Positions 35,571 to 38,407 of a stretch of 45,737 nt of DNA are shown piece after piece. The stretch lies in contig CACEJY010000012.1 in the NCBI GenBank assembly GCA_902559985.1, forward strand, positions 1 to 45,737, given 5' to 3'. Below the pieces are notes generated by a model. It ran no database searches, was not told the origin of the DNA, and saw nothing but the letters and a program-made list of their open reading frames with translations. Source of the stretch: an uncultured SAR116 cluster alpha proteobacterium. GTDB taxonomy: Bacteria; Pseudomonadota; Alphaproteobacteria; Puniceispirillales; Puniceispirillaceae. Positions within the stretch are counted from its first letter, which is position 1; each line of letters opens with the position of its first letter. The position numbers and the translations under genes are program-made.

Positions 35571-35662
35571 GGAGGGGTGGCCGAGTGGCTGAAGGCGGCG
35601 GTTTGCTAAATCGTTAAAGGAAGAAATTCCTTTCGGGGGTTCGAATCCCTTCCCCTCCGCCA
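35571..35662 (+). tRNA. tRNA-Ser (anticodon GCU)
   Basis: The acceptor stem GGAGGGG (35571-35577) pairs with CCCCTCC (35652-35658), the discriminator is G, and CCA is encoded at 35660-35662. The anticodon loop TTGCTAA gives anticodon GCT at 35605-35607, reading AGC/AGU serine codons. The long variable arm AAAGGAA-GAAA-TTCCTTT is the class II hallmark of tRNA-Ser, and the T-loop GGTTCGAATCC is standard. The 3' end is part of a 15-bp repeat that recurs at 38393, so this tRNA appears to be the integration site of an islet. Confidence 0.97.
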
Positions 35663-35665
35663 TTT
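35651..35665 (+). repeat. Left attachment-site repeat (attL core)
   Basis: TCCCCTCCGCCATTT covers the last 12 bases of the tRNA-Ser gene including CCA, plus three T. It is identical to 38393-38407. The match ends on both sides (T versus A before, T versus C after). Confidence 0.75.
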
Positions 35666-35696
35666 TTATTAAAGGAATACAATAAGTTACAAGGCA

Positions 35697-35715
35697 TTGC
35701 ACCAGATTTGCACCA
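35697..35715 (+). repeat. Paired TTGCACCA sites at the left end of the islet
   Basis: TTGCACCA occurs at 35697-35704 and 35708-35715, start-to-start distance 11 bp, about one helical turn. The reverse complement TGGTGCAA occurs at 38292-38299 and 38345-38352 near the other end. The placement suits integrase arm-type binding sites. The role is inferred. Confidence 0.5.
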
Positions 35716-35785
35716 CACGCTGAAAAAACAGGGTCAATTGGCTTACTTTTTCACGTTCAGTATTAAAGGCTTTCACTTTTTTGTT

Positions 35786-36193
35786 TTAAGCTCTGGATTG
35801 GATGAAGGAGTAAACGGCTACACAAAACAAAATAAGTATCGAAACAGTCAGGACAGCTCTAAATAATTTGAGTAAGGCTTTGCCGAAAGAAACGGCAAAC
35901 GATTCCTTCTCAACTTTTTCGGTTTCCTCAATATTTAGTAATTGAATCGCACGCAGCTGCTCATCTTCAATAATCGAGTTCATTGCTATCTCATCTTTCA
36001 GCGCCTCGACTCTCAACTTTATATATAAAGCTTTTGCTTTTTTTTCCTCACCCTCAGTCTTAGTTAGTGCTTGACCCCAAGTGCCTTCTTTTCGTTCATC
36101 ACTGTTGATTTCGTGCATTACATATTCAAAAAGCTTTGTTTCTAGCATCCTTTTAGCAACTGCATTTTTGTCATTTCGTCTGAACAATCCCAT
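35786..36193 (-). CDS. Hypothetical protein with C-terminal membrane anchor (islet cargo)
   Basis: ATG at 36193, preceded by an AAGGAT site, gives 135 residues starting MGLFRRNDKNAVAKRMLE. The frame could extend to 36253, but those residues look non-coding. The protein is charged and helical with a segment KAKALYIKLRVEALKDE, which I recall from short helical regions in various proteobacterial membrane proteins. One C-terminal membrane span (about residues 111-130, VLTVSILILFCVAVYSFI) follows. It is probably cytoplasmic-facing and tail anchored. No catalytic motif is seen and the function is unknown. Confidence 0.7.
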   Translation of the reverse strand: MGLFRRNDKNAVAKRMLETKLFEYVMHEINSDERKEGTWGQALTKTEGEEKKAKALYIKLRVEALKDEIAMNSIIEDEQLRAIQLLNIEETEKVEKESFAVSFGKALLKLFRAVLTVSILILFCVAVYSFIQSRA

Positions 36194-36617
36194 GGGGGCA
36201 CATCCTTTGCTCGGTAAACACAAGGAATGCCTACAGAACAATGAGTTATCCAAGTGTATCTCTAAGGAGTTGGTGCGGCCGAGATGAAGTTCTACGCTTC
36301 AATACTGCACCAGTCTCACTGCTAAATAAGCAATAGCTCCACTTTAGGATACTGTGAGTCACTGTCAACAGGCACATTTGGTATACTCTGTGTACACCAA
36401 GGTTTCATGTACTCTTAAAGAACTCTCTGAGAACACTGATACTCAGCACCCCTTAAGGAACTCCTATAGGTCTCTAGAGAGTCTCTGGTGTGTCTGATGG
36501 TGGGGGTGTGGAACTCACTTGGGGTACCCTGTGGAGAGGGGTGGTTTGCACATTTGATTGGTTCATCTAACCTGATGGTCATATATTTAAATTGAACACA
36601 AAAAGATGGGATAAAAT
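36194..36617. other. Non-coding region within the islet, rich in short inverted repeats
   Basis: No gene is seen in 424 bp between two divergent islet genes. It contains an operator-like inverted repeat (36378-36400), a CTGAG/CTCAG hairpin (36427-36446), the palindrome TCTCTAGAGA (36472-36481) and a near-duplicate pair CTTAAAGAACTC / CTTAAGGAACTC around 36415 and 36454. It likely holds both divergent promoters and perhaps a replication or control site. Confidence 0.45.
36378..36400. promoter_or_regulatory. Operator-like inverted repeat in the islet
   Basis: TTGGTATAC (36378-36386), a 5-bp spacer, then GTACACCAA (36392-36400) form a 9-bp inverted repeat with one mismatch. It lies between the divergent membrane-protein and OGFr genes and would suit a dimeric repressor. 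No regulator is encoded in the islet. Confidence 0.4.
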
Positions 36618-37064
36618 ATGGCTTCGCTTTGTAGTTTTCTTACTGGACATGAAACCAACAGCAGTGGTTGGCTCCTATCTCATGTTTGGAAATTCAACGA
36701 TACGCAGATAGAAAACACCCACACATTTATTCAATGGGTGTTTCCAACGAACGAGGCGAGCAGAGCTATGCCTGGGTCGCCATTGCTCGATGAAGAGGAA
36801 ATTGCAGAAATACAAAATAGTGAGCAAGCAAAACAAAATTTAAGTAAATCTGCTGATTGGTATTTTAATTTTCTCAGAAGAAATAGCTTTTGGCGAAAAC
36901 CTCACGACCATAATCATCTCCGTATTACTCGCGTGATAAAATCATTGCGTCTTTTATGTGGAGATGATGAGGCTGATTACTTTAAAGAACAATTCTGGCA
37001 ATTGCTTGGAACTGACATTTCTCAAATTCCGTCAAAGACAATTGAATATTGGGAGGATGCCTAA
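36618..37064 (+). CDS. OGFr-domain protein (opioid growth factor receptor-related)
   Basis: This 148-residue protein matches the conserved region of the OGFr_N family (Pfam PF04664). Key segments are ENTHTFIQWVFPT (residues 32-44), the Pro/Leu-rich PGSPLLDEEEIAEI, and HNHLRITRVIKSLRLL near residue 98. The family is named after a vertebrate receptor but is widespread in bacteria, where its role is unknown; the name does not imply opioid binding. No signal peptide or membrane segment is seen, so it is probably cytosolic. The ribosome binding site is weak. The gene converges on the RpoC-like fusion with a 4-bp stop overlap, in the tRNA-Ser islet. Confidence 0.8.
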   Translation: MASLCSFLTGHETNSSGWLLSHVWKFNDTQIENTHTFIQWVFPTNEASRAMPGSPLLDEEEIAEIQNSEQAKQNLSKSADWYFNFLRRNSFWRKPHDHNHLRITRVIKSLRLLCGDDEADYFKEQFWQLLGTDISQIPSKTIEYWEDA

Positions 37065-37993
37065 TATGCATCTTGCAGAATGATATTGGCTAAAATATCA
37101 CCCGGCTGCACCTCCTCTTTCTCATCACGACTTATGTGGCATCCAATCGGCAAGCTATAGGTGGCCGGGCTACCATCAGAGAGCACTTTAACTTGACCAT
37201 CGGTTGAGAGAATTTTGATATGTGGTTTTAGTGAATTTGATTGGTTATCACTAAGAACTGTCCTCGAGGTTATGCCCGTAGCATCGCAATATTTGGTCTC
37301 TAGAGTTTGCCCCTCAATTAAGTCGAAATATGCCACAAAACCACTGGTTTCAGCGATGATTTTTTGAAAATATGGGTCGAAGCTAGCAAGTTTCTGACCT
37401 TTTGCTACACTGTCTCCATCTTGAAATAATAATTCATCCCCATACATCAACCGATGATGCTCCAGAATTTCATAGTCTGCGTCTACAATCATGATTTGTG
37501 CAACGTGGTTACTCAATATTTTTACATCATCACTTCGTTCAAAAACATCAACATTGAATGTTTCGATTTTCCCATTACTCAAAGCTTCAATATGCCTAGA
37601 TGGATTTAATCTAAGCTGCCATTTTCGGTATTTTTCTGAAATGTATCTCTGCTCACTATCTGGCACACCAGCCATTTTTGCAGTCCATCTATCAGAATCT
37701 ATTTCTACCCAGTCGCACTCACCATAGGCCAGCCAAACTTCAGGCCCCGTCATTATAATGCAGTAGTCTTTCCAGATTTGCTTTCCCTGTGGGTCTTCAT
37801 GTATTCCGACCATTCCGTATGATTTTAATTCTTCTTCTATGTCACTATCATCACCCATAGAACCGGTTCTATATAAGTGGTCATCATACCAAAATTGGTG
37901 GTTTTTCTTCCATTCCTCCCAACCACCAGGATATTTTTTTTCAATTGCGTCTCTTCTTACAATTACATTTGAAAATTCAAGCATTACACTCAT
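37061..37993 (-). CDS. Fusion protein: unnamed N-terminal domain plus RNA polymerase beta' SI3-like SBHM domain
   Basis: The 310-residue protein has two parts. Residues 1-107 (MSVMLEFSNVIVRRDAIEKK, YPGGWEEW, ECDWVEID) resemble a family of short uncharacterised bacterial proteins that normally stand alone. Residues about 137-305 read like the sandwich-barrel-hybrid-motif region of RNA polymerase beta' (SI3): GDELLFQDGDSVAKGQKLAS, FDPYFQKIIAETSGFV, DLIEGQT, DATGITSRTVL, LKPHIKILSTDGQ, YSLPIGCHI, VQPGDILANI. In E. coli RpoC the matching text includes WDPHTMPVITEVSGFVRF and LTGLSSLVVLD. The trigger-loop sequence that follows in RpoC is absent, so it cannot be a polymerase remnant. A good AAGGA site precedes the ATG. 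It may bind RNAP-associated factors; this is inference. Confidence 0.8.
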   Translation of the reverse strand: MSVMLEFSNVIVRRDAIEKKYPGGWEEWKKNHQFWYDDHLYRTGSMGDDSDIEEELKSYGMVGIHEDPQGKQIWKDYCIIMTGPEVWLAYGECDWVEIDSDRWTAKMAGVPDSEQRYISEKYRKWQLRLNPSRHIEALSNGKIETFNVDVFERSDDVKILSNHVAQIMIVDADYEILEHHRLMYGDELLFQDGDSVAKGQKLASFDPYFQKIIAETSGFVAYFDLIEGQTLETKYCDATGITSRTVLSDNQSNSLKPHIKILSTDGQVKVLSDGSPATYSLPIGCHISRDEKEEVQPGDILANIILQDAY

Positions 37994-38291
37994 GGAAAAT
38001 CCTTCTAAAAGGCAGAGGGGGTCTGTGGCTACCGCGACGTTGACCTATTGTCATTATAAAGTTTCTGCCTGAAACAAATAACAATAACAGGCCAATGAAT
38101 GTTACTAAATCTAAACTCCACTCCATCCCTTATTTCTTCACTTTTGTACCAATCTTCGGACATCTGACTCACCAAAATCATGACTTCTAAATTGTTCTTT
38201 TTATTGAAGCTATCAGGAGATGTGTCGGTTGAGTAGGGGGAGTATGTTCTATATTATTTTGAACAACGGGTTTGTGACCGTATTTTGTCCG

Positions 38292-38352
38292 TGGTGCAAA
38301 GCTGACACATCCTGACACACTGTGACACAACGTGACACAAGTTCTGGTGCAA
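38292..38352 (-). repeat. Paired TGGTGCAA sites at the right end of the islet
   Basis: TGGTGCAA at 38292-38299 and 38345-38352 are reverse complements of the TTGCACCA pair near the left end. They flank the TGACACA array. A related TTGCAACC lies just beyond at 38358. This is consistent with arm-type integrase sites. Confidence 0.5.
38303..38339 (+). repeat. Four TGACACA boxes phased at exactly 10 bp
   Basis: TGACACA begins at 38303, 38313, 38323 and 38333, with varied 3-bp spacers. A 10-bp period puts all four on one face of the helix, typical of cooperative binding by an excisionase-like or iteron-binding protein. It lies 54 bp from the right attachment repeat. Confidence 0.6.
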
Positions 38353-38392
38353 CTCTCTTGCAACCAATTGTATTAATTAATAAATTTCGGCA

Positions 38393-38407
38393 TCCCCTCC
38401 GCCATTT
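38393..38407 (+). repeat. Right attachment-site repeat (attR core)
   Basis: TCCCCTCCGCCATTT is an exact copy of the tRNA-Ser 3' end at 35651-35665. No other tRNA sequence surrounds it, so it is a stand-alone duplicate, as expected at the distal end of an integrated element. Confidence 0.75.

Follow-up and report, generated by a model that had tools for sequence, protein, structure and literature searches.

A probable excisionase-site array within phage-type attachment arms of an integrase-less tRNA-Ser islet in a SAR116 alpha-proteobacterium

The recombination directionality factors (RDFs; excisionases, Xis) are reported to bind head-to-tail on direct repeats spaced one helical turn apart and to bend att DNA; for Apl of phage 186, five repeats at 10-11 bp are described (PMC7498355). 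Two such proteins, RdfS and Pukovnik Xis, belong to the HTH-17 winged-helix (wHTH) type (PMC11963761). Elements that lack integration genes of their own are also on record. CIMEs (cis-mobilizable elements) are decayed ICEs or IMEs that keep attL and attR, and their accretion by tandem integration has been described (PMC5704250). The microcin H47 island of E. coli is small and has no recombinase genes, its excision and integration being attributed in the abstract of the report to trans-acting functions of the genetic context (PMC3191183). In known phage satellites, on the other hand, the integrase and the excision factors are said to be encoded by the satellite itself (PMC10803314).

The locus compared here with these systems lies in a 45,737-nucleotide contig of an uncultured SAR116 cluster alpha-proteobacterium (hereafter the window). 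A tRNA-Ser(GCT) gene, the integration target, is predicted by ARAGORN at 35571-35662 on the + strand, and a 15-bp copy of its 3' end recurs downstream, enclosing an islet of 2,742 bp. The two copies of this direct repeat, TCCCCTCCGCCATTT, form the attL core at 35651-35665 and the attR core at 38393-38407, both on the + strand. Close to the right end, 54 bp from attR, the heptamer TGACACA occurs four times on the + strand, at 38303-38309, 38313-38319, 38323-38329 and 38333-38339. A preliminary description of this DNA had reported four identical boxes on an exact 10-bp period, separated by variable spacers and lying beside a right attachment site, and each of these points was borne out; the three spacers (TCC, CTG and ACG) are all different. 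The array is flanked on either side by the heptamer GGTGCAA (38293-38299, outer, and 38346-38352, inner; both +), and the inverse motif TTGCACC occurs twice at the opposite end of the islet (35697-35703 and, 11 bp from the first, 35708-35714; both +). These four heptamers are putative integrase arm-type sites and are kept in the phages described below. The islet contains three ORFs. No integrase is among them, and neither a rep gene nor transfer genes were found in the islet, while attL and attR are both present.

When the whole window was shuffled 100 times with dinucleotides preserved, the longest run of any identical 7-mer on a fixed period of 8-12 bp had two units, whereas the window itself contains one of four. 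A scan of the host genome (1.7 Mb, about 73% complete), which the preliminary description had proposed, found no other pair of boxes at the array spacing, and a three-box pattern allowing up to two mismatches was absent from all other genomes in a set of 61 from the family. The TGACACA motif has no diagnostic value by itself: when about 85,000 genomes were scanned, three phased boxes turned up in 41 stretches, mostly intergenic DNA of Flavobacteriaceae in different contexts. Flavobacteriaceae genomes (L034, L039, L043, L049, L054, L055, L057, L063, L073 and others) carry several intergenic 10-bp TGACACA arrays followed by phased TTGTTCGAG-like repeats, on several contigs per genome; these are apparently unrelated to the array of the islet. 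One further contig (L107) matched the combined box and arm pattern by chance and has neither an array nor an integrase.

A scan of IMG/VR for three phased boxes identified the same array in three marine phage contigs (L077, L085 and L084), two of which are near-identical. In all three, the two ends of the islet are joined as one continuous attP, in the order GGTGCA, four TGACACA boxes at 10 bp, GGTGCAA, an AT-rich stretch, the core, and two copies of TTGCACC; the first box of L084 reads TGAAACA. By blastn against L077/L085 and whole records, the left att arm of the islet (35659-35733, +) is 88% identical to the phage attP over 75 bp, and the right arm (38284-38392, +), which was also aligned, is 89% identical over 109 bp. 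Identity to both islet ends is thus 88-89% for L077 and L085, and about 82-88% for L084. The phages encode a tyrosine integrase of 351 amino acids (Pfam Phage_integrase, E=2e-20) whose gene ends at the array; in L085 the TGA stop codon of int is formed by the first letters of box 1. Directly upstream of int, and overlapping it, is an ORF with an HTH_17 domain (E=5e-8), for which the best PHROG match is 'excisionase and transcriptional regulator' (phrog_66). On the strength of these weak-to-moderate profile matches and its position, we regard this ORF as a putative Xis. Sequence searches matched it to no solved structure, and its AlphaFold model was too poor to use (pLDDT 56).

The core of L084, GTCTCTCCGCCAGCA, matches the tRNA-Thr(TGT) 3' end found in the host's own clade exactly over 15 bp, a link between this phage group and these hosts. 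Both its attP and the islet, with the 15-bp repeat in tRNA-Ser, have the arrangement of a tyrosine-recombinase site, with a core equal to the 3' end of a host tRNA and arm sites in inverse orientation. For the core of L085 no consistent host site was found. The tRNA-Ser(GCT) core occurs in none of the three phage contigs, so the actual partner phage of the islet is unsampled. In searches run without a positive control genome, the phage integrase was found neither in 136 genomes of the order nor in a class sample of 385, and the right arm, sought in the same 136 genomes, was recovered only from the window itself.

Conservation separates the boxes from their surroundings. In an alignment of the islet with L085 and L084, 1 of 28 box columns is variable, compared with 5 of 9 spacer columns and 30 of 68 columns outside the boxes and arm sites, spacers included (Fisher p=4e-5 for boxes against the other columns, p=0.0016 against the spacers only). 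The earlier suggestion that selection on protein contacts, not simple tandem duplication, maintains the boxes is upheld by these counts. TGACACA is confined to one att arm, and GGTGCAA/TTGCACC is found on both in inverse orientation, which is the division expected of Xis sites and Int arm sites. We conclude that the boxes are most probably a head-to-tail array of RDF (excisionase, Xis) sites in one attP arm of a temperate marine phage, and that a 2.7-kb islet without an integrase carries them here at its right end. Like the arrays of phage 186 Apl, lambda Xis (X1-X1.5-X2) and Pukovnik Xis, it consists of short direct repeats (6-7 bp in those systems, at 10-11 bp), here four copies one helix turn apart at exactly 10 bp; it occupies a single att arm, between putative integrase arm sites; and in the phage contigs a small HTH protein is encoded together with int, although that gene is absent from the islet. 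It differs from the known arrays in its sequence and its exact 10-bp period, in the overlap of the first box with the int stop in L085, and in its presence on an element with neither int nor xis. The array itself is an ordinary kind of site that is newly mapped here, and the unusual part is its carrier, an islet without an integrase that holds the complete att arms of a phage.

If the boxes are excisionase sites, monomers of Xis, the small phage HTH_17 protein, would bind one per box, 10 bp apart on the same helix face. The bound Xis would then polymerise and bend the att arm. The phage tyrosine integrase, presumably bound to GGTGCAA in the right arm and to its inverse TTGCACC in the left, could then connect these arm-type sites with the 15-bp core and release the element from tRNA-Ser. 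As the islet would contribute DNA sites only, both Int and Xis would have to be provided in trans or, by a phage integrated in tandem, in cis. The excised circle is predicted to carry the junction right arm - TTTCGGCATCCCCTCCGCCATTTTTATT - left arm.

The division of roles might also be reversed, with TGACACA serving as the arm-type site of the integrase and GGTGCAA/TTGCACC as the site of another factor, Xis or a host protein. Both motifs are conserved, and known attP sites include tandem arm-type sites; yet TGACACA is restricted to one arm while GGTGCAA is on both, and four tandem copies at exactly 10 bp match the reported RDF pattern (PMC7498355), making the reversed assignment improbable. 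The preliminary description had likened the boxes to excisionase sites or iterons. The first half of that comparison is favoured, as the array forms part of a phage attP, has int and a putative xis as neighbours and follows the published RDF pattern. The second half, or more broadly a role in replication or as operators of a repressor or promoter instead of in recombination, appears very improbable: phased repeats are indeed typical of iterons and operators too, and some RDFs also act as repressors (PMC7498355), but in the phage contigs the array is placed where int ends, between the att arm sites and in no promoter position; the 52-kb phage record has it at attP only; and the islet has no detectable rep gene, whereas iterons adjoin the gene of a replication initiator. 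Functionless tandem duplication of a 10-bp unit is hardly credible. It would account for the regular period, but the spacers are unlike one another and vary across the three sequences, in contrast to the boxes, and none of the 100 shuffles reached three units.

The homology between islet and phage has sharp limits: on the right it extends 9 bp beyond the outer GGTGCAA, and on the left 19 bp beyond the outer TTGCACC. The right-arm homology stops where int begins, and over the next 200 bp the islet matches L085 at 52 of 200 positions, compared with 170 of 200 between the two distinct phages. None of the three islet ORFs has a match in the phage contigs, and comparison with the available whole phage records found only the att arms in common and no packaging similarity, the true helper being unsampled. 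The islet thus holds the functional att DNA of a phage and nothing else from it, and Int and Xis would have to come from outside. The best interpretation is that it is either a mobilisable passenger of a phage not yet sampled or the remnant of such a phage. We infer that it may still be able to move, and put the chance that it is dead somewhat short of even, its att arms left behind when the interior of a prophage was deleted and replaced. Such decay produces CIMEs (PMC5704250), the locus is a mosaic in which the islet contains a module of another islet type, and other islets of the clade have broken integrase genes. Set against this are the close limits of the homology, an int that has left no trace, and spacers that have drifted between intact boxes and arm sites, which favours kept function without proving it. 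Overall, decayed remnant and live passenger are about equally likely, and the sharp limits and intact sites tilt us towards function. At 73% completeness of the host genome, a resident helper prophage may have escaped detection.

Among described elements, CIMEs share with the islet att sites without integration genes and a tRNA site as the locus of accretion, but the arms of the islet come from a phage and not from an ICE or IME, and only functional arm sequence has been kept. The microcin H47 island sets a precedent, being small and lacking recombinases, although it is 13 kb in length with long imperfect repeats, and an RDF-site array in a complete phage attP is not mentioned in the abstract (PMC3191183). 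Phage satellites (PICMI, PICI and P4-like) are likewise small phage-linked islands at tRNA or gene sites, and PICMI encodes an AlpA-type regulator, but the islet has neither an integrase nor a regulator of its own. The array offers a precise candidate set of excisionase sites for an uncultured marine phage lineage, and the islet indicates that a bacterial element can hold the whole integration-site grammar of a phage without its integrase, comparable to the relation of MITEs to transposons. If mobile, such elements would escape surveys based on integrase genes, and searching for a short att-arm pattern would offer a means of detecting them.

The three ORFs of the islet encode proteins of 155 amino acids (35786-36253, - strand), 148 amino acids (36618-37064, +) and 310 amino acids (37061-37993, -). 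The first has a homologue in a tRNA-Arg islet of a relative (G010). The second contains an OGFr_N domain (Pfam PF04664, E=6e-12); its relatives are scattered over 8 other genomes of the order and two phage records, including that of the large phage XacN1. In the third, an unrecognised N-terminal half is fused to a C-terminal half (residues 134-305) that resembles the SI3 insertion of the RNA polymerase beta' subunit (PDB 2auk, E=1e-19; best match 7ye1, E=6e-21) and shares 30-38% identity with the RpoC of the host clade. The SI3-like region occurs once more in the host genome, within an open frame of 1396 amino acids. The OGFr_N and 310-residue proteins yielded no relatives in IMG/VR, and PADLOC returned no match. 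Judging from these similarities, the 310-residue protein could possibly be an RNA polymerase decoy or regulator. The islet could be a minimal phage passenger that is still live, with a full attP in tRNA-Ser around its cargo and moved entirely by phage Int and Xis in trans or in tandem, and could also carry an SI3 decoy which hinders or helps phage takeover of transcription; this combination we advance tentatively and consider doubtful. A repeat module at 36196-36548 (+) is common to other tRNA islets of the clade and seems to contain the att core of another integrase family, apparently a core of the tRNA-Leu 3'-end type. Elsewhere in the clade the module is repeated next to tRNA-Leu, tRNA-Arg and other islets, in many cases as two inverted copies separated by about 1.6-11 kb.

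Two relatives (G013 and G014) have quite different islets ahead of the same right flank, with an arm motif of their own, TTTGTACC, which marks the tRNA-Ser site as an integration hotspot. No clean attB junction or empty site was obtained, as neighbouring genomes carry other islands there. Different islets with TTTGTACC arm motifs were seen at or near this tRNA-Ser site in relatives (L012, 7495-9015; L029, 2327-5067); their cargo comprises beta-barrel or lipoprotein genes, and the integrase is broken in L029 and absent from L012. In a further contig (L024, 2566-8171), a tRNA-Thr gene is followed by two tandem integrase genes, between which lies a cargo segment bounded by inverted repeats.
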